Below, in pieces: positions 10,534 through 56,325 of a DNA stretch of 64,000 nt (within the stretch, counting starts at the first letter, position 1; every line of letters starts with the position of its first letter). The DNA is from an uncultured cyanobacterium (GTDB lineage: Bacteria > Cyanobacteriota > Cyanobacteriia > PCC-6307 > Cyanobiaceae): assembly GCA_903858015.1 (NCBI GenBank), contig CAIOGZ010000009.1:1-64000 (forward strand), in the 5' to 3' direction. Made by a program: the position numbers and the translations under genes. Below the pieces are notes generated by a model, which saw only the letters and a list, made by a program, of their open reading frames with translations, ran no database searches and was not told the origin of the DNA.

Positions 10534-10606
10534 GGGGCCATAGCTCAGCTGGTAGAGCACCTGCATGGCATGCAGGGGGTCAGCGGTTCGAATCCGCTTG
10601 GCTCCA
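10534..10606 (+). tRNA. tRNA-Ala, anticodon GGC
   Basis: The 73-base sequence folds as a complete cloverleaf: acceptor GGGGCCA pairs with TGGCTCC and includes the G3-U70 wobble that marks alanine tRNAs. There is a D-loop AGCTCAGCTGGTAGAGC, an anticodon stem CCTGC/GCAGG around loop ATGGCAT (anticodon GGC), a T-loop GGTTCGAATCC and discriminator A73. CCA is not encoded. A strong terminator follows nine bases later. Confidence 0.97.
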
Positions 10607-11036: not shown

Positions 11037-12293
11037 GTGCCGACGGTGGGACCTGGGGTGGAGCTGGCCTTGGTTGAGGAACGGGGGGCAAAACCGAGCG
11101 CGATCCCCGCAGCCAGGGCCCATCTCCTTGAGCTGGCCAGGGCCAGACCAGCCCTGGTGGAAGCTCTGCACCAGGTCTTGAATCCAGTGGTGAGTCCACA
11201 GGCCTCGCCACCGGCCAGCGCCCTGGCCCATTTGGGTCAGGAGCTGGCCCTAGGCGCGGTGGGCCGCCATCGGCTAGCGATCGTGCTGGCCCCCCACGCG
11301 GCAGCGCTCGGCCTTCCGCCGCCAATGGCGGCCCAACTGGCGCAGCAGGGCCGCCACCAGCAACGGCTGGCCTTGCCCTTGATCGCCTTGGCCTTGGAGC
11401 TGCTGCCGGCCCTGGAGCGCTCCGGCCTGCGCGCCCTGCTGCTCAAGGGTCCGGCCCTGGCCGTGCAAACCACCGGCCAGGCCTGGGGCCGGGGCGGTGG
11501 CGATCTCGACCTGCTCGTGGCCCCAGGGGATGTCCCCGCCGCGGTGGCCGTGCTCGAGGGGCTGGGCTATACCAGCCCGCCGGGGATGTTTCCCCGCGAT
11601 CTCAGCTCGTTTTGGGGCCGTTACTGCCGCTGGGTGGGCCACGAGCTCAGCCTGCACCGCCCCGGCAGCCCCTGGCTGGATCTGCACTGGGCCCTCACCA
11701 CCGGGCGCGCACCCCACCCCAGTTTTGAGGCCCTCTGGCTGGAGCGGGAGATGGTGAGCCTCAATGGCAAAGCCTTGCCCACCTTGGGCCGCCACCATGC
11801 CTTTGAGCATGGCTGCCTGCATGCGGCCGCCGATCAGTGGATGAACCTCAACCACCTGCTCGACCTGGCTCGCCTGGCGCCGGCGCTGCCTGTTGAGCAG
11901 CGGCAGCGGCTGCGGCGCTTGAAAACCGTGCGCCTCAGCTGCGCCGCCGCCTACGACGCCACCGGCTGCCCTGAGCTGCTGAGCTGCACCGATCCCCACC
12001 GAGCCGATTGCCGCCGCGCCATCGCCCACGCCCGCTGGACCCAGGGGCGGCCCCAGCGGGCCACCGCCGATGGGGCCTGGCATCTGGGCCACTGGTTGGG
12101 CATCGTGATCCATGCTGCCTCGCTCAGCCCCGCACCGATCGACTGGCTGCGGGTGGTGGCCCGCTTCAGCCTGCTGCCGGCCGCCTTCAACGATCCGATC
12201 AGCGGGCGGGACCTGGGCCTGGCAGGGATGCTGCAGGCCCGCTGGCGCCGGCTGCAGCAGCGACTTCAAGAGCGGCGGCAGGAGGATTCGTAG
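11037..12293 (+). CDS. Nucleotidyltransferase-family protein (NTP_transf_5 type)
   Basis: A 418-residue protein starting at GTG. Family features are clear: LLLKGPALA at 135-143, the metal-binding GDLDLLV at 155-161, a WLDLHWAL stretch near 215 and a late EHGCLHAAADQWMNLNHLLDLAR helix pair. This family is found in polysaccharide clusters and in some lasso-peptide clusters, where a member (PsmN of pseudomycoidin) acts on the phosphorylated peptide. Here it lies about 6 kb before the lasso operon and starts a run of three same-strand genes with a beta-helix and a Wzy-like protein. Whether it serves the lasso peptide or a surface polymer is open. The N-terminal 60 residues are unlike the family and the start may be later. 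Confidence 0.78.
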   Translation: MPTVGPGVELALVEERGAKPSAIPAARAHLLELARARPALVEALHQVLNPVVSPQASPPASALAHLGQELALGAVGRHRLAIVLAPHAAALGLPPPMAAQLAQQGRHQQRLALPLIALALELLPALERSGLRALLLKGPALAVQTTGQAWGRGGGDLDLLVAPGDVPAAVAVLEGLGYTSPPGMFPRDLSSFWGRYCRWVGHELSLHRPGSPWLDLHWALTTGRAPHPSFEALWLEREMVSLNGKALPTLGRHHAFEHGCLHAAADQWMNLNHLLDLARLAPALPVEQRQRLRRLKTVRLSCAAAYDATGCPELLSCTDPHRADCRRAIAHARWTQGRPQRATADGAWHLGHWLGIVIHAASLSPAPIDWLRVVARFSLLPAAFNDPISGRDLGLAGMLQARWRRLQQRLQERRQEDS

Positions 12294-12318
12294 CCTGAGC
12301 GATCGCCACGGGCGTCCC

Positions 12319-13896
12319 ATGGCCTTGTCTCGCCACGCCAGCGCCGGCTGGGTTGCCGCCGTGCTGGCGCTGGTCGCCACGGTGCATTACCTGCAACTGC
12401 CCAGCGGCTGGCTGCGCCAGGGCGTGGTGCATGTGGCGCCGGATGGGTTTGATGGCTTCGTGGGGCAGTCGCGCCGCTTTGCGGTGCGCACGATCCAGCG
12501 GGCGGCCCAGATCGCCGAACCCGGCGAAACGATCCTGATCTGGCCGGGGATCTACCGGGAGAGCGTGCGGCTGAAGCGGGGCGGCCTGCCGGGGCGTCCC
12601 CTGGTGCTGCGCGCCGCCGTGCCCGGCCAGGCGGTGATCAGCGGCGGCGCCGATCCCGGGGTGATGGCGGCCTGGCAGTGGCGGCCGGATGGCCCCAGGA
12701 TTTGGAGCACCGCCGTGGCCTGGCGGGTGCTTGGCCTGCGCTGGAACGGCGTTGCGGCCTATCGCGCAGGTTCCCTGGAGCAGCTGCGCCAGATCTGCGC
12801 CAGGCCCGGCGCCTGGCCGGCTTTCAGCTCGGCCGAGCGCAGGCTGTGGCTATGTCTGCCCGGGGGCGAATCGCCCCGGCTCGAGCAGTTGGAGGTGCGC
12901 CGGCCGATGCCTGCCCGCACCCGCTCCGGCGGCCATCAGGTGGCGAGTTTGTGGATCGAGGCGCCCCATCTGGAGGTGAGGGATCTGCGCTTTGATTTCG
13001 TGGTGATGGCGGCGATTCAGCTCTGGCATGCCGATCACGTGCTGATCGAGGGCAATCAGTTCGACACGGCTGATGTGGCGATCAATGACAACGCCTCCCT
13101 GGCGCAGCCCCGGGCGATCCGCATCCGCCACAACCTCAGCAGCTGCTTTCCACTGGTCGAATGGGGCCGCAGCGGCTGGCTGAGCTGGAAGGAGCTCTAT
13201 CCCTATTCCAACTGCTCGTTGGTTTGGCTGCGGGGACAAGACATCGAGGTGGATCACAACATCATTCTCCAGGCCGGCGACGGCATCAAGCTCAGCCCGG
13301 AGGGCGGCAGCAACCGGGCGCGGCAGAATCTGATCGTGGAGAACACCGATGATGCTTTTGAGTTTGATGGTGCAGCGCGTCATCTCAGGGTTGAGAACAA
13401 TCTGATCATCAACCCCTTTGTCGCTTTCGCGATCAGTCCGGTTTCCTCCGGCCCACTGACGATTAGTAACAACATCGTGCTGATTCCGCCCCGCCCGCCA
13501 GGGCTTGGTTATGGCGTCCTGCTGAAGCTGATGGGTGGCCCGAGCCGCCATGTCAGCTTGCGGCGCAATCTTTATATGGGCTACAGCCTCGCCAACGGCA
13601 CAGCCGATTCGCCCCTCACTGACATGCGCATCGAAACCAATGGCTTTGCCCTGCTGACGCCGCGAGATCACGGCCTTGCCCAGGCCGATCAGATTCAGTG
13701 GCGGGCGAATCGCTACCTCGGGCTCTCGTTCGAGCGCTGGCGCCAGGCGCTGGGGGATGCCTCGCTGCTCACCCCTGTGGGCGGGCGGCCCCAGCCGCTG
13801 GGCCCGGTCGGTCCGGCCTGGCTGGACCTCAAGCGCGATCCGGCCGCTGCCCCGCTGCGTCGTTACCGGGGCAGCCCCTGGCTGCTGCTGCGATGA
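12319..13896 (+). CDS. Right-handed parallel beta-helix protein, probably exported
   Basis: A 525-residue protein with one N-terminal hydrophobic segment (about 9-24), so secreted or anchored. Its body shows a DUF1565-like opening (TIQRAAQIAEPGETILIWPGIYRE) and then repeated coils of the form hx(V/I)xxNxI, such as VLIEGNQFDTADVAINDNAS, IEVDHNIILQAGDGIKL and LRVENNLIINP. This is the fold of pectate-lyase-like and polysaccharide-modifying enzymes. It sits 25 bases after the nucleotidyltransferase, and its stop overlaps the next ATG (ATGA), so the two genes are probably co-translated. A role in modifying or binding a surface glycan is inferred; no catalytic residues were assigned. Confidence 0.8.
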   Translation: MALSRHASAGWVAAVLALVATVHYLQLPSGWLRQGVVHVAPDGFDGFVGQSRRFAVRTIQRAAQIAEPGETILIWPGIYRESVRLKRGGLPGRPLVLRAAVPGQAVISGGADPGVMAAWQWRPDGPRIWSTAVAWRVLGLRWNGVAAYRAGSLEQLRQICARPGAWPAFSSAERRLWLCLPGGESPRLEQLEVRRPMPARTRSGGHQVASLWIEAPHLEVRDLRFDFVVMAAIQLWHADHVLIEGNQFDTADVAINDNASLAQPRAIRIRHNLSSCFPLVEWGRSGWLSWKELYPYSNCSLVWLRGQDIEVDHNIILQAGDGIKLSPEGGSNRARQNLIVENTDDAFEFDGAARHLRVENNLIINPFVAFAISPVSSGPLTISNNIVLIPPRPPGLGYGVLLKLMGGPSRHVSLRRNLYMGYSLANGTADSPLTDMRIETNGFALLTPRDHGLAQADQIQWRANRYLGLSFERWRQALGDASLLTPVGGRPQPLGPVGPAWLDLKRDPAAAPLRRYRGSPWLLLR

Positions 13897-15989
13897 GGGG
13901 GGAGGAGCCCAGCAGGGCCGGCCCGGGCCAGGGGGGCGCCAGGCAGAAAGCCAGTTCCAGGCGATCGATCGCCGCGGTTGCGATCGCCGCGGTTGCGGCC
14001 GCAACGGCCGGCCTCGCGGCGGCGATGCTGGTGGCGATCGGATTGATCCTGCTGCTGTCGCGGATCAGTGTCGATCAGCCGCTCGAGAGCCGTGAGCTGA
14101 TCGACTGGGGATGGCGCTGGGGCGGCGTGCTTGCGGTGGGGCTGGCCTCGGCGGCTGGCCTGGGGGGGAGGCCGCCCGCCGGCCCCCGATCCTCCGCCAG
14201 GGTGGCGGCGACGATCGCCACGCTCACCGTCCTGGTCTGCCTGGTTGCCATCGGTCTGGCGGTAGCCGCCGTGCGCCTGGGGCTCTGGGGCCAGGGCTGG
14301 GGGCTGCCCAGCCGCTCCACCTACGCCGCCCAGGTCGCCGCCCTGCCCACGCTGGAGTGGATCGGTTTGCCCGCCGCTGCCCTGGGCGCCTGGCTGCTCT
14401 GGCGGGGGCGCCTGGGGGCCAGCCTGCCGCCCTGGCGGGCGCTGAGCCGGTGCCGGCCCAGCCTCGATCGGATCACCCGGCTGCTGACGCTGGTGATCGC
14501 CCTGGCCGTGGTGCTCAACGGCCTGCCCTTCTGGGCCCGCCGGATTGGCCTGCTCGACCGGCAGGCCTACAGCCGCGATGTCGCCGTGTTTTGCAGCCCC
14601 CCCGTGCAGCCCTTGTGGCTGCCGGCAACCTGCCGCCCCCATCGCCCGTCGAGCGGCCTTGCTTCAGCCCCGGCGCACCGGATCACCCCGGCGGGGCAGA
14701 TCACCCCGGCGCGCCGAATCGACTGGCAGCGTCTTTATCAGATCACGCCGCTGGAGGCGGGGTTGAAGGCGCTGCGCTACGGGGTGGTCGTGCTGCTGCT
14801 GGCGGTTTCCGCCGGCCTGGCGCTTGGCCAGCGGCGATCGACACCCCTGCCGCAGGCGCTCCGTTCGCGGTTGCCCCTACTCCCCCTGCTGGTCTCCAGC
14901 CTGGTGTCTGGGCTGATCAGCCTGCCCCTCGATGGCCTGATCGCCACGCTGCTGAGCGCGGTCTGGTGTCTGTGGATTCCGCAGGCGGCGATCAGCGGCT
15001 GGCTCACAACGGCACGGAGGCTGCAGATCCTGGCGGATGGTGCCGCAGCCCTGGTGCTGATTCAGGTGCCTTTTGTGGTGGTGGAGGCAGCGCGGGGGCT
15101 GCCGCTCCCCTTCGGTGCTCCAGCCGTTGCCTGGTGGCCGACGCGGCTTTCGGGGGTGATCAATCAACCCAACACGCTCGGCGGCCTGCTGGCGGTGAGC
15201 GTGGCCCTGTGCATTTGCGTCTCCGCCCGCCGCTGGCAGCGCTGGCCTCTGGGCCTGGTCGCCTTGGCGATCTCGCTTCTCGCCCGTTCCGGGACGGGGG
15301 TTGTGGGGCTGGCTCTGGTGGCCGTCTGCCTGCTGGCCGCAACGCCGGTCGGCCGCCGCCGGCCTTGGCTGGCGCCTGCTTTGGCTCTACTGGGTCTGCT
15401 GGTTCTGATGCATGGGATGCCGCGGCTGCTGGGGCGGCCGCAGCTGTTGCAATCCCCCGCCGGACGCCTGCGCACGGTGCGCATCTGGCTGCAGCAACCA
15501 CACACCCCGCAGCAATGGATCTTCGGTTACGGCGTCGCCAGCCCCAGGCCCGGTCGCGGCCAGATCCTGAGCGCACCCTCCCCCAAGCCCGGCCCTTCGC
15601 TGAAGCCGGAACCCTCCCTGAAGCGGGGCCCCTCCGTCGATGGCATGCCCACGCTGCTGATCTCCCAGGGCGGCCTGCTCGGCTTGCTGGCGTTCTACGG
15701 GTTTTTGAGCTGGTGCTGCTGGCTGGATCCGCTCTGGCGCCCTTTCTGGATCGTGCTCCTGGCCACAAGCCTCACCCTGAACGTGAGTGAGGTGTTCCCG
15801 ATCGGAGTCTGGATGGCTGTCGGCGCCGCCCGGGTGCTGGCTCCGGGCGGCTGGCTTTGCTCACCAGCCGGCGGGCCTGGCGTGGTTGGGCCGCGAACCC
15901 TGCGATCGGCCTGGTCGTGGATCAGGAGCGGGCGCCGCTGGGGTGGTGGTGGTGCTGCCGTTCCGCCTGCTCTCGATCGCTGGCCTTGA
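13893..15989 (+). CDS. Multi-spanning membrane protein of the O-antigen ligase / Wzy polymerase type
   Basis: A 698-residue protein with at least ten hydrophobic segments, starting at the ATG that overlaps the beta-helix stop. The stretch NQPNTLGGLLAVSVALC followed by a helix ending in LLARSGTGVVGLAL is the (N/Q)PN...G...RSGTG pattern of the Wzy_C/O-antigen ligase family; large periplasmic loops flank it. Such proteins polymerise or ligate lipid-linked glycans. The C-terminal 70 bases overlap the end of the convergent ABC transporter gene. With the nucleotidyltransferase and beta-helix gene it forms a three-gene unit. Confidence 0.75.
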   Translation: MRGEEPSRAGPGQGGARQKASSRRSIAAVAIAAVAAATAGLAAAMLVAIGLILLLSRISVDQPLESRELIDWGWRWGGVLAVGLASAAGLGGRPPAGPRSSARVAATIATLTVLVCLVAIGLAVAAVRLGLWGQGWGLPSRSTYAAQVAALPTLEWIGLPAAALGAWLLWRGRLGASLPPWRALSRCRPSLDRITRLLTLVIALAVVLNGLPFWARRIGLLDRQAYSRDVAVFCSPPVQPLWLPATCRPHRPSSGLASAPAHRITPAGQITPARRIDWQRLYQITPLEAGLKALRYGVVVLLLAVSAGLALGQRRSTPLPQALRSRLPLLPLLVSSLVSGLISLPLDGLIATLLSAVWCLWIPQAAISGWLTTARRLQILADGAAALVLIQVPFVVVEAARGLPLPFGAPAVAWWPTRLSGVINQPNTLGGLLAVSVALCICVSARRWQRWPLGLVALAISLLARSGTGVVGLALVAVCLLAATPVGRRRPWLAPALALLGLLVLMHGMPRLLGRPQLLQSPAGRLRTVRIWLQQPHTPQQWIFGYGVASPRPGRGQILSAPSPKPGPSLKPEPSLKRGPSVDGMPTLLISQGGLLGLLAFYGFLSWCCWLDPLWRPFWIVLLATSLTLNVSEVFPIGVWMAVGAARVLAPGGWLCSPAGGPGVVGPRTLRSAWSWIRSGRRWGGGGAAVPPALDRWP

Positions 15990-17946
15990 GCCGCACGACG
16001 CGATCGGCCTGCTCGATCAGTTCGGCGTCATGGGTGCTCACCAGCACCAGCCGCTGCCTGGAGCGCTCCAGCAGGATCGCCCGCACCCGTTGGGCCGATT
16101 CCGCATCGAGGAAGGCGGTGGGTTCATCGAGCACTTCGACGGGGCGATCCCGCAGCCAGGCCCGCAGCAGGCCGAGGCGATGGATTTCGCCGCCGGAGAA
16201 ATGATCGAGCGCCAGGGGCAGGGGATCGTCGATTCCAGCGGCGCGCTCCAGCAGGTGGGCCAGGCCCAGCCGCTGCAGCCAAGCCTCGATCAGCTGGGGG
16301 GGTTGGGGCCGATCTAGCAGCAGGTTGTGCCGCAGGCTGGCCTCAAACAGCACGGCCCCCTGGGGGGCATAGGCCAGCAGCTGCCGCAGCTGGCGGGCCC
16401 CCGCCGGGCCGCTCAGGCTCGCCTCACCGATCGCGCTGTGGACGCACCAATGGCTGTGCTCCTCCCCCAGCAGGCCGCAGAAGCCATCGAGAAGCGTGGT
16501 TTTGCCGGACCCCGAGGGGCCCACCACCGCCACCAGGCAGCCGGGCTGGAGTTCCAGCCCGGCTGCCGCAGAGTTGGCAGCGCCGCTGGCTGAGGTGGGC
16601 TGCCAGCGCAGGGCGTGCCAGGCCGCGGGCCGATCCAGGGCCGCCCTGGTGGCCGGCGCAAGGGTTGCGCCTGGCTCTTGCTCGGTTGGGGGCCTGAGTA
16701 GTGCACGCTTTTTGCAGAGCTCCTGGTAGCCGCTCAGGGCTCCGAGGCAGTTGCGCTGGCCCCCGATCACGCCGCCCAAGGCGCTGCCGCTGCGGTAGGC
16801 CAACAGGAGGGTGGTGGCGATGTCCGCCGGTTGCAGGTCGGCGCGGCCCCACACCAGCCACACCCCCACCACCGCCACCACCAGGGTGTCGCGCAGGGCT
16901 GTGAACAGGGCCTGGCGCTGCACCGTCTGCTGCAACACCTGCCGGAAACGGCGGTTGTCTTCGGCGAAGCGCCTCAGCAGCCACGCCTCTGCTACCGCAG
17001 CGCGCACCGCCTTGAGGCCATGCAGCCCATCCCCCACGGTGCGCTGCAGGGCGCCGTTGAGCCGGGTTTGGAGGCGGCCCAGCTGCCAGCTGCCGGAGCG
17101 CTGCAGCATGGCCGCGGCAGCGGTGGCCAGCAGGGCGAGCGCCAGCGGAAAGGCCGCCTGACGGCCCACCAGCAGCACGCCACTGGCGTAGAGGACGAGC
17201 GATAGCAGCGCCTGCAGGGCGCTGAGCCCCTGATCAAGGGCATACACGCTGCGGTTGATGTCCGCCATCAGCAGGCCCAGCAACTCGCCGCGGCCCACCT
17301 GCTCCAGGTTCACGGCGGGGGCATGCATCACCTGGCCCAGGAGCTGCTGGCGGAGCCGATCGGTGAAGCCGGAGCGCAGGTGCTCGCGGCCGATGGCGAT
17401 CCAGGCCTGGAGCCCGCCGCGCACGAGCACGAGGGCCACCAGCAGCGCCAGCCCCTGCTGCAACGGCAAGCGAAGCGGCAGCTGCGGGCCCAGGGAAGCA
17501 CCGCCGCCCTGGCCGCCCAGCAGCAGCGAGACGCCCACGCCAAGGCCGGCGATCTCGAGCAGGCTGCTCAAGGCGGTGAACAGGGCGAGGCTCACCAGAT
17601 GGCGCCAGCCCGCCTCCCGCGCCAGCTGCCAGGCCAGGGAGAGGCGGCGCAGGCGGGCCAGGATGGGGGCAATGGGGTCGCTGCGGCGGGGGATAGGGCC
17701 GTTCAGCCTTGAATCCAGAGTTCCGCCCAGGCCGCTGCGGCGCGGCCGATCACCTGAGTTGGGCTGAGTTGGCACGAGTTGGGCTGAGTTAACCCGAAAT
17801 GGACTGTAGTTGCAGGGGCCGTGGTATGGGATGCCCCACAGCTGAAAAGGGCGCGGCTGAAAAAAGGGGCGGAGACTGGGTAAAGAGTCAATCCTGTCAC
17901 GACACCATAAAAAAGTGAGATTGATTGAGCTAAGGTATAAAGCCAA
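15922..17946 (-). CDS. ABC transporter, membrane domain fused to ATPase (candidate lasso-peptide exporter)
   Basis: A half-transporter with membrane segments spread over about residues 100-380 and a C-terminal ATPase carrying Walker A GPSGSGKT, the signature FSGGEIHRL, Walker B VEVLDEPTAFLD and the H-loop STHD. Exporters of this architecture (LanT-, McjD- or MsbA-like) accompany lasso clusters. It is transcribed divergently from the lasso operon with about 250 bases between them. The first 85 or so residues from the outermost ATG at 17946 show no family character, so the true start is probably 150-260 bases further in at a GTG or TTG. The 3' end overlaps the Wzy-like gene by 68 bases. Confidence 0.85.
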   Translation of the reverse strand: MALYLSSINLTFLWCRDRIDSLPSLRPFFQPRPFQLWGIPYHGPCNYSPFRVNSAQLVPTQPNSGDRPRRSGLGGTLDSRLNGPIPRRSDPIAPILARLRRLSLAWQLAREAGWRHLVSLALFTALSSLLEIAGLGVGVSLLLGGQGGGASLGPQLPLRLPLQQGLALLVALVLVRGGLQAWIAIGREHLRSGFTDRLRQQLLGQVMHAPAVNLEQVGRGELLGLLMADINRSVYALDQGLSALQALLSLVLYASGVLLVGRQAAFPLALALLATAAAAMLQRSGSWQLGRLQTRLNGALQRTVGDGLHGLKAVRAAVAEAWLLRRFAEDNRRFRQVLQQTVQRQALFTALRDTLVVAVVGVWLVWGRADLQPADIATTLLLAYRSGSALGGVIGGQRNCLGALSGYQELCKKRALLRPPTEQEPGATLAPATRAALDRPAAWHALRWQPTSASGAANSAAAGLELQPGCLVAVVGPSGSGKTTLLDGFCGLLGEEHSHWCVHSAIGEASLSGPAGARQLRQLLAYAPQGAVLFEASLRHNLLLDRPQPPQLIEAWLQRLGLAHLLERAAGIDDPLPLALDHFSGGEIHRLGLLRAWLRDRPVEVLDEPTAFLDAESAQRVRAILLERSRQRLVLVSTHDAELIEQADRVVRLKASDREQAERQHHHHPSGARS

Positions 17947-18194: not shown

Positions 18195-19178
18195 TTGTCG
18201 CACCTATACCGGGCGTTTGGTCTTGAAGTCCGCAGCGACGATCTGGAGCTGCCGGAGTTGGCTCCCCTTGGCCCGGCTGCCGCTTCGGGGCTGATCGCCG
18301 CAGCCGATCCCCTGGTCTGCCTTCAGTACGAGCCACCCTGCGATTGGCCTGCCGCCAGCGAGGCTCCGCCAAGCCACTGTCATCGCGATGATCGGCACAG
18401 CCTCTGGATCGTGCCCAACGAGCTGCGCCTGCAGATCTGGACTGTGGGCCATTTCCGCATCCTTGGCGGCCATCAGATCGGCTGGTGCCCCGCCCAGCCG
18501 GGGCTGAGCCTGGGCGAGCTGCGCACCTATCTGCTGGGGTCGGCCTTTGGGGCGCTATTGATTCAGCGGGGCCTGCTCGTGCTCCATGGCAATGCGCTCG
18601 AACGGGATGGGCGGGCCATCGTCTGCCTGGGGGCCTCGGGCGCCGGCAAGTCCACCCTGGCCTGCGCCTTGATGCACCAGGGCTGGCGGCTGCTGGCCGA
18701 TGACCTGGTGGCCATCACCCCCGAGGGGATGGTGTTGCCGGGCATCCCCCGCATCAAACTTTGGCAAGATGCGCTGCCAGCGTTTGGCTTTTCGCCTGGG
18801 TCTTTAAGCCCCGTGGCCGCCGGCATAGCCAAATACCTGATCCCCGCCGACCAACTGCGGCCGGCGCCGGCCCCAGCCCGGCTGGCCCAGCTCTACCTGC
18901 TGCAACGGGAGCCCTGGAATGGCATTCGCCCCCTGCAGCGACGCGCCATCGGCAACGAGCAACGGGCGATGGCCGAACTGCTCAACCAGCTCTATCGCCC
19001 CACCTTTGTGGCGGGGTTGGGTCGTCAGGGCCCCTGCTTTATGGCCCTGGCCCGGTTGCTGCGCCAAGCACCGTTGACAACGCTGCTCTTACCGGACACC
19101 ATCACCGACTTGATTGGGGCCCTGGCATCGATCGACCTGTTGTCCTGGCAGCCGGGAATCAGCCCAACCCCCGTTTGA
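18195..19178 (+). CDS. HprK-like serine kinase of a lasso-peptide cluster
   Basis: A 327-residue protein starting at TTG. It has the fold marks of HPr kinase/phosphorylase relatives: LVLHGNAL near 128-135, P-loop GASGAGKS at 146-153, LLADDLVAI near 167-174 and PGIPRIKLW near 182-190. Homologues in lasso clusters (PadeK of paeninodin, ThcoK, PsmK) phosphorylate the C-terminal Ser of the precursor. The precursor here does end in Ser. The stop overlaps the TTG of the next gene (TTGA), so translation is probably coupled. Similar kinases also occur in exopolysaccharide clusters, but the next four genes favour the lasso reading. Confidence 0.82.
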   Translation: MSHLYRAFGLEVRSDDLELPELAPLGPAAASGLIAAADPLVCLQYEPPCDWPAASEAPPSHCHRDDRHSLWIVPNELRLQIWTVGHFRILGGHQIGWCPAQPGLSLGELRTYLLGSAFGALLIQRGLLVLHGNALERDGRAIVCLGASGAGKSTLACALMHQGWRLLADDLVAITPEGMVLPGIPRIKLWQDALPAFGFSPGSLSPVAAGIAKYLIPADQLRPAPAPARLAQLYLLQREPWNGIRPLQRRAIGNEQRAMAELLNQLYRPTFVAGLGRQGPCFMALARLLRQAPLTTLLLPDTITDLIGALASIDLLSWQPGISPTPV

Positions 19179-19519
19179 GTCGCGTCGCCATCCCGTACGA
19201 GCCCATCCCGTACCAGCCCATTCAGTACCAGCCCATCCCGTATCAGCCCATGCCCTACCAGCGCCACCCCGATGTCTGCGCCGCCGAACTGGATGGTGAA
19301 ATCTGCCTGTTCCACCCCCAGACCGCCCGCTACCTGGCCTTGAACGCCACCGGCTCTGCCATTTGGCAACTGCTGGATCGGCCCATGGACCTCAAGGGCT
19401 TGGTGAGTGCCTTGCGGCGCGATTTTGAGGTGGAGGAAGGGACCTGCGATCAGCACACCCGCGCTTTTCTGGGCGAGGCGGTGGCCTGCGGCATGCTGCA
19501 GGAAGCCCCGGAGCCTTGA
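19175..19519 (+). CDS. PqqD-like lasso-peptide protein B1 (leader-binding RRE domain)
   Basis: A 114-residue protein, taking the TTG that overlaps the kinase stop as start. From residue 32 on it is a PqqD-type RiPP recognition element: HPDVCAAELDGEICLFHP, ARYLALNATGSAIWQLLD and a closing helix pair. B1 proteins bind the precursor leader and bring it to the B2 peptidase. The first 29 residues hold five units of the type PI(P/Q)YQ, an unusual proline-rich extension. The stop again overlaps the next start as TTGA. If translation instead began at a later codon the extension would be shorter, but no other start fits the coupling. Confidence 0.85.
   Translation: MSRVAIPYEPIPYQPIQYQPIPYQPMPYQRHPDVCAAELDGEICLFHPQTARYLALNATGSAIWQLLDRPMDLKGLVSALRRDFEVEEGTCDQHTRAFLGEAVACGMLQEAPEP
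19190..19261 (+). repeat. 15-base tandem repeat coding for PI(P/Q)YQ units
   Basis: About five copies of a 15-base unit close to CCCATCCCGTACCAG sit at the 5' end of the B1 gene. The third positions vary (TAC/TAT, ATC/ATT/ATG), while Pro, Tyr and Gln are kept. Confidence 0.85.
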
Positions 19520-19959
19520 TCCAGCCCCTGAGGCGCCTGCGTCCCCTGCGGCGCCTGCGGCAAGAATTGATCTACGGGCTGTTCTGTGGTCTGGACCACC
19601 TGATCTGGGTTGCGGTGCGGCTGCTACCTGGCCCCCGGCTGTTGGCGCTCTGCCGCCAGCGCCCCTGGCGGCGGCAGAGCGCCTTCGCCACCAGCGCTGC
19701 TCGCGAGCGCTGCTTGGGGCGCCTCAGCTGGCTGCTGCGCCAGCGCTGCCGGCGGGCGGGCTGGGGAAGCAGTTGCCTGAGCCGTTCGTTGGCCGGCAGA
19801 GTGCTGCTTGACTGGCGGGGCTTGCCCAACGATCTGCACCTGGGCATGGAGCGCAATCCCGGCGGCGACCCGATCCCCCATGGCTGGCTCAGCAGTGGCG
19901 GCCGCAACCTCACCCCCGGTCTCGATCCCCGCCGGGGGGCTCACCTGATCACGCTTTGA
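19516..19959 (+). CDS. Lasso-peptide protein B2 (transglutaminase-like leader peptidase)
   Basis: A 147-residue protein of the transglutaminase-core-3 type that removes the leader from lasso precursors. The catalytic Cys87 lies in GSSCLSRSLAGRVLLDWRG, the pattern of this family, and the catalytic His is probably His122 in DPIPHGWLSSGG; Asp137 is a candidate third residue. The usual motif around the His is AHAW, so PHGW is a mild deviation. TTG start overlaps the B1 stop. The cyclase gene follows after 13 bases. Confidence 0.83.
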   Translation: MIQPLRRLRPLRRLRQELIYGLFCGLDHLIWVAVRLLPGPRLLALCRQRPWRRQSAFATSAARERCLGRLSWLLRQRCRRAGWGSSCLSRSLAGRVLLDWRGLPNDLHLGMERNPGGDPIPHGWLSSGGRNLTPGLDPRRGAHLITL

Positions 19960-19972
19960 GGCGAGCAACCCG

Positions 19973-21829
19973 ATGATTCCTGTCCTCGCCGGCCTGGTCG
20001 CCCTGGATGGCTCCAGCCTGGAGCGGCACCTGATCAGCCCCCGTCCAGGCTGGCGCGGCGAGGGGGTCGAGCTGGCGGGCCGCCTCAGCCAGCATGGGCC
20101 CTCCGCCAGCCTCTGCCTGGGTTCGGCCCGCCTCGACAATCGCCGGGAGTTGATCGCTCAGCTGGATCTCAGCCAGGCCGAGTGGGGCTCCCCCTCCCCC
20201 CGCGATGCCGTCCACGACGACACCCACCTGATCCACCGGGCCTGGCTGCGCTGGGGCGAGGACTGCGTCGAGCGTTTGCTGGGGGACTGGGCCTTCGCGA
20301 TCTGGAATCAACGCTCCAGGAGCCTGTTCCTGGCCCGGGACCACTACGGCATCACCTCGCTGTATTACGCGTTTGGCGCCCGCCATTTCGCCTTTGCCAG
20401 CCAGCTGCAGGATCTGCTGGCGCTCGAGCTGGTGCCGCCACGGCTGGATGAAGGGCATCTGGCCCGGCTGCTGCTGTGCTGGCCCGCCAGCAGCGGTGAG
20501 GGCACGGTGCGGGAGGGCGTCAAGCGGCTGCCGCCCGCCCACTGCCTGCACCTCGAAGACGGACGGCTGCAGCAACGCCAGTACTGGTTTTTGGAGCGGA
20601 CTCCGCCCCTGGCGATCCGGGACCGCCGCGAAGCGGTGGAGGGCTTTCTGGAGCTGTTTGACCAGGCCGTGGCCTGCCGCCTGCGCCGGGACGACGGCGG
20701 CAAGGTGGCCAGCACCCTCAGCGCCGGCTTGGATTCCGGCGCGATCAGCGTCACCGCGGCCAGCCAACTGGCCGAAAGGGGGGAGCGGCTGCAGGCCTTT
20801 ACGGCGGTGCCGAGCGGCGATGTGACCACCCTGGCGGGCGCCCGGCTGGGCAACGAGTGGCCCCTGGCCGCCGCCGCAGCCCGCGGCCAGGGCCAGATCG
20901 ACCATCACCCGGTCACGGCGGAGGCTCTCTTGCCGCTGCAGGGCTTCCGGCAGGCCTTGGCGATCCATGGCGAGCCCCTGCATGCGGCCGCCAATATGGA
21001 TTGGTTGATCTGCCTCAATCGCGCTGCTGTTGCCGAGGGGTGCACGGTGCTGTTGATCGGCCAGAGCGGCAATGGCGGCATGTCCTGGCAAGGCCGCCTT
21101 TCCTCCCAGCCCGGGCCGGTTCTCTGGCGTCACTACGGGCCCCGCATCTGGTTGCGGGAACGGATCCGGCCCCTGCTGCCGCCGGCCTGGTTGCGGGACT
21201 GGCAACAGTGGCGTCGTGCCGGGCATCCCTTCCCTCCCCATCGCCGCCTGGGCCAGGGCTCCGCCCTCAACCCAGCCCTGCTGAAACGCCTTGATCTGGA
21301 GCGGCGTTGGCGCAGCGATGGCTCCAATCTGCCGCCCCGCACGGCCCTGGAGGAACGCTGTCGTTTTTTGCGGCCGGGCTGCATGGCTGGCGGTGCCCTG
21401 CATGCCGAGCAAGGCCGGGCGGCGGGTCTGGAGATTCGCGATCCCTCGGCCGACGCCAGGCTGCTGGCCTACAGCTGGTCGCTTCCCGATCGGGTGTTCA
21501 TCGATCCCGAGACAGGACAGCGCCGCTGGCTGTTGCGCCAGGCGATGGCGGGCCGCCTCGCGGAGGCGGCGCGAACCAACGAAAGGCGGGGACTGCAAGG
21601 GGCCGACCAGGTGCTGAGACTCCGCCAAGAAGGCCCGGACGTCGAGACGGCCCTGCAGCGGCTGGCCCACTCGCCCCTGGCCCAAACCATGCTTGATGTG
21701 GGGAAGCTGACCGATTTTTGGCGCCGAATCGAGCGGCAGGAGGACGCCAGAACCGCTGGCCTGGCTAGCAGCTCATGGTCGCGGGGGATGATGGTGGGCC
21801 TATTTTTGGCCGATTGGCCCGCAAGGTGA
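19973..21829 (+). CDS. Lasso-peptide macrolactam synthetase (asparagine-synthetase-like protein C)
   Basis: A 618-residue protein built like class B asparagine synthetase. The N-terminal glutaminase-like half lacks the catalytic Cys2 (it begins MIPVLAG), as in lasso cyclases, which activate the Asp or Glu side chain with ATP rather than use glutamine. The ATP-binding loop is STLSAGLDSGAIS, with SAGLDSG at 250-256. GQSGNGGMSWQG and the late RDPSADARLLAYSWSLP match the cyclase group. It should join residue 1 of the core to Asp8. The precursor gene starts 53 bases downstream. Confidence 0.88.
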   Translation: MIPVLAGLVALDGSSLERHLISPRPGWRGEGVELAGRLSQHGPSASLCLGSARLDNRRELIAQLDLSQAEWGSPSPRDAVHDDTHLIHRAWLRWGEDCVERLLGDWAFAIWNQRSRSLFLARDHYGITSLYYAFGARHFAFASQLQDLLALELVPPRLDEGHLARLLLCWPASSGEGTVREGVKRLPPAHCLHLEDGRLQQRQYWFLERTPPLAIRDRREAVEGFLELFDQAVACRLRRDDGGKVASTLSAGLDSGAISVTAASQLAERGERLQAFTAVPSGDVTTLAGARLGNEWPLAAAAARGQGQIDHHPVTAEALLPLQGFRQALAIHGEPLHAAANMDWLICLNRAAVAEGCTVLLIGQSGNGGMSWQGRLSSQPGPVLWRHYGPRIWLRERIRPLLPPAWLRDWQQWRRAGHPFPPHRRLGQGSALNPALLKRLDLERRWRSDGSNLPPRTALEERCRFLRPGCMAGGALHAEQGRAAGLEIRDPSADARLLAYSWSLPDRVFIDPETGQRRWLLRQAMAGRLAEAARTNERRGLQGADQVLRLRQEGPDVETALQRLAHSPLAQTMLDVGKLTDFWRRIERQEDARTAGLASSSWSRGMMVGLFLADWPAR

Positions 21830-21882
21830 GGCATCCTGATTTGGCAGGAGCTGCTAAAGTGGCTAAAGTCAAATCATGGGCC

Positions 21883-22050
21883 ATGATCCTTAACGCACCC
21901 TACGATTCAAATCAGAGTCAAACTGTTGAACTGAATCGCCGCAATCTTCAGAAGCGAAAAGTCTGGATCAAGCCCGAGTTCCGGCAGCTCGAATTCATGG
22001 CAACTGCCGCTGCTGCCGCTGGTGCGAACGACGGTAACGGCTTAAGTTGA
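21883..22050 (+). CDS. Lasso-peptide precursor (A), predicted core of 13 residues
   Basis: The 55-residue product has a polar leader with the RRE recognition motif WIKPEF at 28-33 (the W/YxxPxL pattern), then Thr41-Ala42. In paeninodin-type precursors, as I remember them, Thr lies 10 residues after the motif Pro and the core starts two later; Pro31, Thr41 and Ala43 fit exactly. Cleavage after Ala42 gives the core AAAAGANDGNGLS. Its Asp8 can close an eight-residue ring with Ala1. The C-terminal Ser fits the kinase in the operon. The tail would be only five residues, short for a lasso fold, so the cut site may differ. No strong ribosome site is visible; the ATG at 21883 is the only suitable start. 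Confidence 0.78.
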   Translation: MILNAPYDSNQSQTVELNRRNLQKRKVWIKPEFRQLEFMATAAAAAGANDGNGLS

Positions 22051-55436: not shown

Positions 55437-56201
55437 ATGGCCCAATCCTCCCGTTCTCTGCAGCGGTTTTTCCTTGTCACCGCTGCTTCCCTTGGGGTGC
55501 TGGCCGCTGCTGGCCCCAGCATGGCCCTGTCTCCAGAGGAAGCGATCACCACCGCAAAAGCTGCCTGTCTCGACAGCGCCGGCAAGCAGGGTTGGAAAAC
55601 TGATCTCGCCAAGGTCATCTCCAGCCGCGCCATCGATGCCGACAAGGTGGAGGTGGTGTTTGACCTCACCCGCGATGGCGTCAATACCGCCCGTCTCACC
55701 TGCCCCTACAGCCTGAGCAAGGGCGTGGATGCCAGCTTCGGTGCGGCTGAAAAGCCCGCTGCTGAGCCGGCTGCCGCGGCTGAGCCCGCCGCACCGGTTG
55801 AAGGCGAGGCCGTGAACCCCGGCCGGGCCTGGTGGCTGCTGCTGCCCCTGGGTCTGGGTCTGCTGGCCTGGGCCGCCCTGCGCGGCAAGGATGAAGGTAC
55901 GGCCGCCTACACCGACACCACCCCCGGCACCACCTACAGCGGTAGCTACACCACCCCCACCGCGGTGACCACCGGCACCACCACCTCCCGCAACATCCAC
56001 GTGGAGGCCAACGCCAAGGATGGCAACCTGGAAGTGCGGGAGCACGCCGACATCAGCTCCGCTGTGCTGCGCCGCGTGCGCAACGGCGACACCGTGTATC
56101 TCACCGGCCACCGTCGCAACGACTGGCTGGAAGTCGCCAATGGCGGCTGGGTGCGCGACATCGATGTCCGCTACGACCGCAGCACGGTGCGCTTCAGCTG
56201 A
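55437..56201 (+). CDS. SH3b-domain envelope protein
   Basis: A 254-residue protein with a signal peptide (about 1-30, ending SMALS), an N-terminal domain with two Cys (AACLDSAGKQGWKTDLAKVI, DGVNTARLTCPYSL), an Ala/Pro/Glu linker, one membrane helix (WWLLLPLGLGLLAWAALR), a Thr/Tyr-rich linker and a C-terminal bacterial SH3 domain (DGNLEVREHADISSAVLRRV, NDWLEVANGGWVRDIDV). SH3b domains often bind peptidoglycan. A clear terminator follows. Confidence 0.83.
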   Translation: MAQSSRSLQRFFLVTAASLGVLAAAGPSMALSPEEAITTAKAACLDSAGKQGWKTDLAKVISSRAIDADKVEVVFDLTRDGVNTARLTCPYSLSKGVDASFGAAEKPAAEPAAAAEPAAPVEGEAVNPGRAWWLLLPLGLGLLAWAALRGKDEGTAAYTDTTPGTTYSGSYTTPTAVTTGTTTSRNIHVEANAKDGNLEVREHADISSAVLRRVRNGDTVYLTGHRRNDWLEVANGGWVRDIDVRYDRSTVRFS

Positions 56202-56231
56202 ACCTCTGGGTTCTCGCGGATCAACAGCTCC

Positions 56232-56255
56232 AGCCCCCCCTAGTGGGGGCTTTTT
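56232..56255 (+). terminator. Rho-independent terminator after the SH3 protein gene
   Basis: AGCCCCC pairs with GGGGGCT around a six-base loop (CCTAGT), followed by a run of T residues. Confidence 0.85.
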
Positions 56256-56325
56256 CATGGCATCCGCCCAGCAGGGGCGTTTCTGGCCACCGTTGCGGGG
56301 CTAATGGCATCCGCCAGCGGCCCGA

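Follow-up and report, generated by a model that had tools for sequence, protein, structure and literature searches.

A predicted lasso-peptide gene cluster with a kinase and a paeninodin-like leader register in an uncultured cyanobacterium

Lasso-peptide gene clusters that include a kinase have been ascribed by reviews to Firmicutes and Proteobacteria (PMC8498205; PMC9266682). In the paeninodin-type (PadeA family) clusters of Bacillota, an HprK-like kinase accompanies a discrete leader-binding protein (B1), a leader peptidase (B2) and a cyclase (C), and the precursor (A) carries Trp at −15, Pro at −12, Thr at −2 and a C-terminal Ser. The WxxP leader motif is reported to be nearly invariant in paeninodin-like precursors of Bacillota, unlike those of other phyla, and the paeninodin-like precursor PbaA has W-15, P-12 and L-10 (PMC13381572). 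Pseudomycoidin-type loci are described as combining the kinase (K), a nucleotidyltransferase (N), B1, B2, C, A and an ATP-binding cassette (ABC) exporter at one locus (PMC8498205; PMC7533575). A deltaproteobacterial kinase-bearing cluster has been characterised (PMC10368454); the bsf cluster of Bradymonas reported there comprises A, B1, B2, C, an exporter (D), K and N. Cyanobacterial lasso clusters are already known (PMC9967302; PMC8600333; PMC7533575), and NCBIfam holds two models named for them, NF033528 (lasso_cyano) and NF033535 (lass_lactam_cya). Here we describe a locus in a 64,000-nucleotide stretch of an uncultured cyanobacterium of the family Cyanobiaceae (contig CAIOGZ010000009.1, assembly GCA_903858015.1; hereafter the window, to which all coordinates refer). 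By its sequence, the gene set K-B1-B2-C-A forms a kinase-bearing cluster of the lasso type, whose precursor resembles those of the paeninodin type in leader register and falls outside the NCBIfam precursor families tested.

Enzymes of the K-B1-B2-C-A cluster

The features of the cluster are as follows.

18195–19178, + strand: K, HprK-like lasso precursor kinase of 327 residues (H131...G146ASGAGKS...D169-D170)
19175–19519, + strand: B1, discrete RiPP recognition element (RRE; RiPP, ribosomally synthesised and post-translationally modified peptide), PqqD-like (PF05402), with a TTG start overlapping the K stop
19516–19959, + strand: B2, lasso leader peptidase (NF033537, PF13471; Cys87/His122)
19973–21829, + strand: C, asparagine-synthetase-like lasso cyclase (PF00733; without Cys2; ATP loop LSAGLDSG)
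21883–22050, + strand: A, precursor peptide of 55 residues, assigned from its sequence and its relatives
21964–21981, + strand: WIKPEF leader motif in A, W-15/P-12/F-10 (read from the sequence; register as reported in PMC13381572)
22009–22047, + strand: predicted core AAAAGANDGNGLS, ring Ala1–Asp8 and tail GNGLS (from the sequence and the Asp-Gly and final Ser of relatives)

The five genes lie on the + strand at 18195–22050 with adjacent or overlapping ends, as an earlier sequence-only reading had placed them. K and B1 share 4 bases, as do B1 and B2, and 13 bases separate B2 from C. A promoter and terminator scan gave 2 promoter-like sites (0.7 expected) and 3 terminator-like sites (3.3 expected). 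The claim of that reading that this is a lasso cluster bearing a kinase is supported by domain and family matches, key residues and recurrence in relatives.

B2 scores 47.2 bits against NF033537 (lasso_biosyn_B2; cut-off 33) and 8.3e-13 against PF13471. Cys87, already singled out from the sequence, is indeed present and, like His122, invariant in an alignment of 12 B2 proteins. C contains Asn_synthase and GATase domains that pass the Pfam cut-offs (PF00733, 1.4e-21), and its best NCBIfam match is the lasso cyclase model NF033535 (9.5e-71; 239 bits, cut-off 525). The cyclase was correctly described as lacking Cys2, since its N-terminus reads MIPVLAGL.

K shows the exact catalytic pattern of HprK-like kinases of the His-Lys-Asp-Asp type (H131, G146, GKS, D169-D170). 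The spacing of these residues is identical to that in BsfK, for which H148/G163/G166/G168/K169/S170/D186/D187 are reported (PMC10368454). B1 matches PqqD above the cut-off (PF05402, 4.7e-15), and its best matches in the PDB are TbiB1 (6.2e-9) and 9x90, PbaB1 (6.7e-8). In the alignment from the PDB match, B1 has Asn at the position where paeninodin-type RREs are reported to keep Gly42 (PMC13381572), so that leader register and RRE are no simple copy of the Bacillota pair. Read from its TTG start, B1 is extended at the N-terminus by a series of PYQPI-like repeats (19175–19250). The B1 frames listed for two related loci (L002 and L003; genome and locus labels of this kind are ours) begin at the equivalent of MPYQRHP, and B1 of a third (L004) has no such repeat.

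Precursor, relatives and proposed maturation

The precursor carries WIKPEF and Thr41 at −2, both as first noted, ahead of a 13-residue predicted core (Ala43–Ser55). It thus contains the reported general lasso leader motif [Y/W]xxPx[L/V/I/F/A] (PMC13381572) together with the Thr. Its proposed paeninodin type holds for the spacing (W28 = −15, P31 = −12, F33 = −10, T41 = −2; compare PbaA) but not for family membership: searched against models of known lasso leaders, A matched neither NF033524 (cut-off 27 bits) nor NF033528 at E ≤ 10, and is therefore paeninodin-like by leader register only. A PDB search with A gave one match, by chance. Our paeninodin-type comparison set consisted of plasmid loci from Priestia (L126) and Paenibacillus (L125), whose precursors have the same W-15/P-12 register and, unlike A, match NF033524. 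The window shares with the paeninodin type the HprK-like kinase, discrete B1 and B2, C, W-15/P-12/Thr-2 and the C-terminal Ser, and differs from it in gene order (K-B1-B2-C-A rather than C-A-K-B1-B2) and, as counted from the sequences, in core length (13 residues against 25 in Priestia and 41 in Paenibacillus). BsfA is unlike A in having Ile at −2, YxxPxL at −17 to −12 and a C-terminal Asp, and is reported to be phosphorylated on Ser3 (PMC10368454). WxxP also occurs as AWIRP in an Azospirillum plasmid locus, with a different Thr spacing. That locus (L127; plasmid p1 of Azospirillum sp. TSH100) encodes, next to wbaP, an Asn-synthase-like protein, PqqD, a kinase-like protein and the candidate precursor with WIRP; a lasso B2 lies at greater distance.

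The predicted core would form a ring of eight residues (Ala1–Asp8) with the five-residue tail GNGLS, and the cyclised core has a predicted mass of 1069.479 Da. Asp8 is an acidic residue inside the lasso ring range of 7–9, and relatives have Asp8 or Asp9. Ser13 is the sole Ser, Thr or Tyr of the core and hence the only place where a hydroxyl of the core could carry a phosphate.

A cyclase search of 42 genus genomes (E ≤ 1e-30) gave matches in nine. Cyclase identity is 82–100% for the window itself, G024 (L004), G037 (L003) and G041 (L002), 53–55% in G014, G018 and G026, and 33–35% in G012 and G016. The order K-B1-B2-C-A is preserved in L002, L003 and L004 (cyclase identity 82–86%), with predicted cores GGVGSTIDGDKFS (L002, cut off by the end of its contig), GARSSDKNDGAGSFGS (L003) and LGAGSRADGTSQS (L004). 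These precursors have diverged yet share W-15, P-12, Thr-2, Asp8/9-Gly and the final Ser; apart from such conserved positions, window-type cores are hypervariable. In L014–L016 the precursor lies between C and K, with predicted cores AGGGSSDDGGGLRIPPTP, ASAGSTGDGVGGGPNPP and ASAGSTGDGVGGGPNP. All seven genus precursors have WxxP, a Pro-to-Thr spacing of 10, Thr-2 and an Asp-Gly pair with its Asp at core position 8 or 9. The recurrence of gene order and precursor motifs in L002, L003 and L004 indicates that the cluster is more than a chance arrangement.

Together with the genes present, their order and homology, the key residues and their conservation, these data lead us to favour, as probable, a cluster for lasso-peptide biosynthesis, of the kinase/nucleotidyltransferase type, that would work as follows. 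B1 would bind the leader through W-15, P-12 and F-10, and K would phosphorylate the C-terminal Ser13 on the linear precursor. B2, through Cys87, would cleave after Ala-1, next to Thr-2; this cut site is predicted. C would then use ATP to activate Asp8, whose bond with the Ala1 amine would close a ring of eight residues that may be threaded by the tail GNGLS. N may attach a sugar to the phosphate, by analogy with reported pseudomycoidin, and D would export the product. Each of these chemical steps, like the roles given to N and D, is proposed from sequence. The product would probably be a phosphorylated lasso peptide and is perhaps also glycosylated. With such a core, of minimal lasso size and with one phosphorylatable residue, the choice of site by the kinase could be tested cleanly.

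Several observations weigh against this scheme. The lasso reading is weakest at the five-residue tail, a very short one for threading through a ring. K scores 30.1 bits against HPr-kinase-C (PF07475) over the ATP site, under the cut-off of 33.3. C, B1 and K all fall under their curated NCBIfam cut-offs; C and K of the Priestia paeninodin-type locus do likewise, while its B1 passes. The 12-protein alignment of B2 shows no invariant Asp after the His as a third catalytic residue. The best NCBIfam match of A is a sub-threshold hit to a sactipeptide model (17.2 bits, cut-off 42). Cores of L014–L016 end in Pro, with ring Ser/Thr and no C-terminal Ser, so the kinase target there is not a C-terminal Ser; most of the cyanobacterial precursors that we found beside a kinase likewise lack a final Ser. 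Finally, D was not found in L004.

The tail also suggests the most serious alternative, an unthreaded, branched-cyclic macrolactam or merely a phosphorylated linear peptide. The predicted core is at the lower edge of lasso size, because a 2026 review gives lasso cores 13–33 residues (PMC13352647); an older review names huascopeptin as the shortest lasso peptide (PMC7549694). Linear polyphosphorylated peptides (LPPs) made with a kinase, an RRE and a nucleotidyltransferase are reported (PMC13381572). With B2 above its lasso cut-off, a lasso-type cyclase present and the ring-position Asp-Gly conserved in 7/7 genus precursors, we regard this alternative as unlikely.

The kinase might instead act on a residue of the ring or leader, as BsfK acts on core Ser3 (PMC10368454). 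The ring Ser/Thr of L014–L016 and the internal Ser/Thr in the cores of L002–L004 point the same way. In the window core, however, Ser13 is the only candidate, and the final Ser is kept in 4/4 window-type precursors (3/3 complete ones and that of L002 at the contig end) within an otherwise hypervariable core. We consider a different target unlikely too, slightly more so than an unthreaded or linear product.

That C is an exopolysaccharide-locus amidotransferase and the operon not a lasso operon is very improbable: its Asn_synthase and GATase domains, its matches to an N-acetylglutaminylglutamine model (6.3e-33) and an XrtA-type amidotransferase model (9.9e-32), and a neighbouring gene, BH, that is weakly polysaccharide-lyase-like and elsewhere sits with its partner W in a polysaccharide locus, are outweighed by the better score of the lasso cyclase model, the absence of Cys2 and the adjoining lasso B1, B2 and conserved precursor.

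Kinases and leader types across the phylum

Searching 386 genomes of the phylum with NF033537 (E ≤ 1e-4) gave matches in 34, of which 32 were above the cut-off. We fetched 39 stretches, among them 26 cyclase-bearing loci from 23 other genomes, and scored as nearby any gene inside the fetched stretch (up to ~10 kb each side of B2), a scope that is not one operon. The locus profile models were made from window-type seeds, and the model for D matches ABC transporters generally.

K lies nearby in 21/26 cyclase-bearing loci, and in 6/13 stretches without a match to C; N lies nearby in 12/26 of the cyclase-bearing loci. Cyanobacterial lasso loci thus usually have a kinase, and the idea that it is a rarity in this phylum, on which the sequence-only reading had based the interest of the cluster, does not stand. 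A literature search that largely lacked subscription papers turned up no description of a kinase in a lasso cluster from cyanobacteria.

The leader sets the window apart from most of these loci. A precursor pattern, which also gives chance matches (for example at 55969–56325 of the window and once in L004), matched in 14/26 loci and found nothing in the other 12. Thirteen of the 14 have YxxP with a Pro-to-Thr spacing of 12, against WxxP with a spacing of 10 in the window; the fourteenth (L065) has WxxP with a spacing of 10. Two or more precursors occur in six of the 14 loci, compared with the one found in the window. Some of the YxxP clusters belong to the lasso_cyano type, the precursor of L062 matching NF033528 at 42.6 bits (cut-off 33). 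A paeninodin-type leader register outside Bacillota, among mostly YxxP precursors, allows leader and RRE specificity to be compared across phyla. What is unusual here is the WxxP leader, the 13-residue core with its five-residue tail and the genes BH and W; the interest of the locus lies in the leader, the minimal core and a possible glycan link, not in the presence of a kinase.

Seven loci of the window's family (L139–L144 and L146) had appeared to be kinase clusters without a cyclase. This was rejected: all seven have, directly 3′ of B2, a stop-to-stop frame of 514–568 residues with a cyclase-type ATP loop. The three frames scanned with Pfam contain Asn_synthase and no GATase domain. These loci represent a second lasso-type cluster in the family, missed by the first cyclase model. 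L144 also encodes a sulfotransferase, a GT2 protein and a candidate precursor that ends in Ser and whose WxxP motif, WITP, has the spacing of 10 seen in the seven genus loci.

In one family (f7), five loci (L051, L052, L053, L056 and L060) contain B2, K, N and D; within their fetched stretches, no cyclase was found by the model or the ATP-loop pattern. In each of the first four, two candidate precursors have the form YSEPELKAHGKISG(L/F)T...GGS(G/R)GF..TT; these are not seen in L060 (a 6.3-kb stretch). These five may be linear phosphopeptide systems like the LPPs of Bacillota. L038/L070 (G200:C29) may be a cluster in decay: next to B1, C, K and N, its B2 frame contains two TAA stops.

Neighbouring genes N, D, BH and W

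Four further genes lie upstream of K.

11037–12293, + strand: N, NTP_transf_5 nucleotidyltransferase (PF14907, 2.4e-32)
12310–13896 (start approximate; open reading frame from 12112), + strand: BH, right-handed beta-helix protein (PF13229, 5.2e-6)
13893–15989 (start approximate), + strand: W, hydrophobic many-helix protein, with no Pfam family over the cut-off
15922–17946, − strand: D, predicted MsbA-like ABC exporter (PF00005, 2.7e-16), with the real start probably at ~17700

As judged from sequence, N and D fit the pseudomycoidin-type set, and BH and W are less expected. The window differs from that set in that N is grouped with BH and W in a unit of its own; any glycosylation here is a prediction from the genes. 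N is linked to lasso genes in L003, L004 and L014–L016, and to D and BH in L122; D is linked in L003, L014–L016 and L122.

BH has an N-terminal hydrophobic helix. Its structural model, of low to moderate confidence (mean predicted local distance difference test score (pLDDT) 55.6), weakly resembles chondroitinase B and family PL6 (best PDB match, E 0.013), and a plasmid search with BH gave no match. The fold prediction for W has a mean pLDDT of 42, and W is split into two open reading frames in some relatives; a role like that of an O-antigen polymerase or ligase is a guess.

BH occurs in 11/42 genus genomes: in 7/7 with a cyclase of at least 53% identity and in 4/35 others (G007, G022, G025 and G029; Fisher p 1.2e-5, not corrected for relatedness). 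W homologues occur in 13/42, again in 7/7 with such a cyclase and in 6/35 others. Strict binding of BH and W to lasso genes was rejected on account of these 4/35 and 6/35 genomes. On the same contig, BH lies beside lasso genes in five of the seven (window, L003, L004, L015 and L016); in G041 it is on a separate contig with N and D (L122), and in G018 it is elsewhere (L120). The order varies, from BH-W near N in the window type to K-B1-W-BH in L015 and L016. In a translated comparison (matches of at least 150 residues), the window and L003/L004 are alike only within the cluster, whereas a flanking gene is common to L003 and L004; we infer that the gene set has stayed together while occupying different sites.

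These associations raise the further idea that the peptide, phosphorylated on Ser13 by K and given a sugar on that phosphate by N, would enter a glycan pathway in which BH and W polymerise, trim or transfer the glycan; Synechococcus-type cyanobacteria would then make a lasso peptide that bears a glycan or is attached to the surface. We consider this pathway quite doubtful; if BH and W do belong, kinase/nucleotidyltransferase tailoring of lasso peptides would be tied to surface glycans.

Also against a tight link, BH and W in G007 (L115) and G022 (L116) stand beside a broken N without lasso genes, possibly the remnant of a lost cluster; W is incomplete in G007, where its first part alone is present. 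The same holds for G029 (L118), where BH-W lies among glycosyltransferases in a polysaccharide locus. A scan of 12 related stretches found no tRNA gene; in the window, a tRNA-Ala(GGC) lies at 10534–10606, ~430 bases upstream of N, and is possibly an insertion site.

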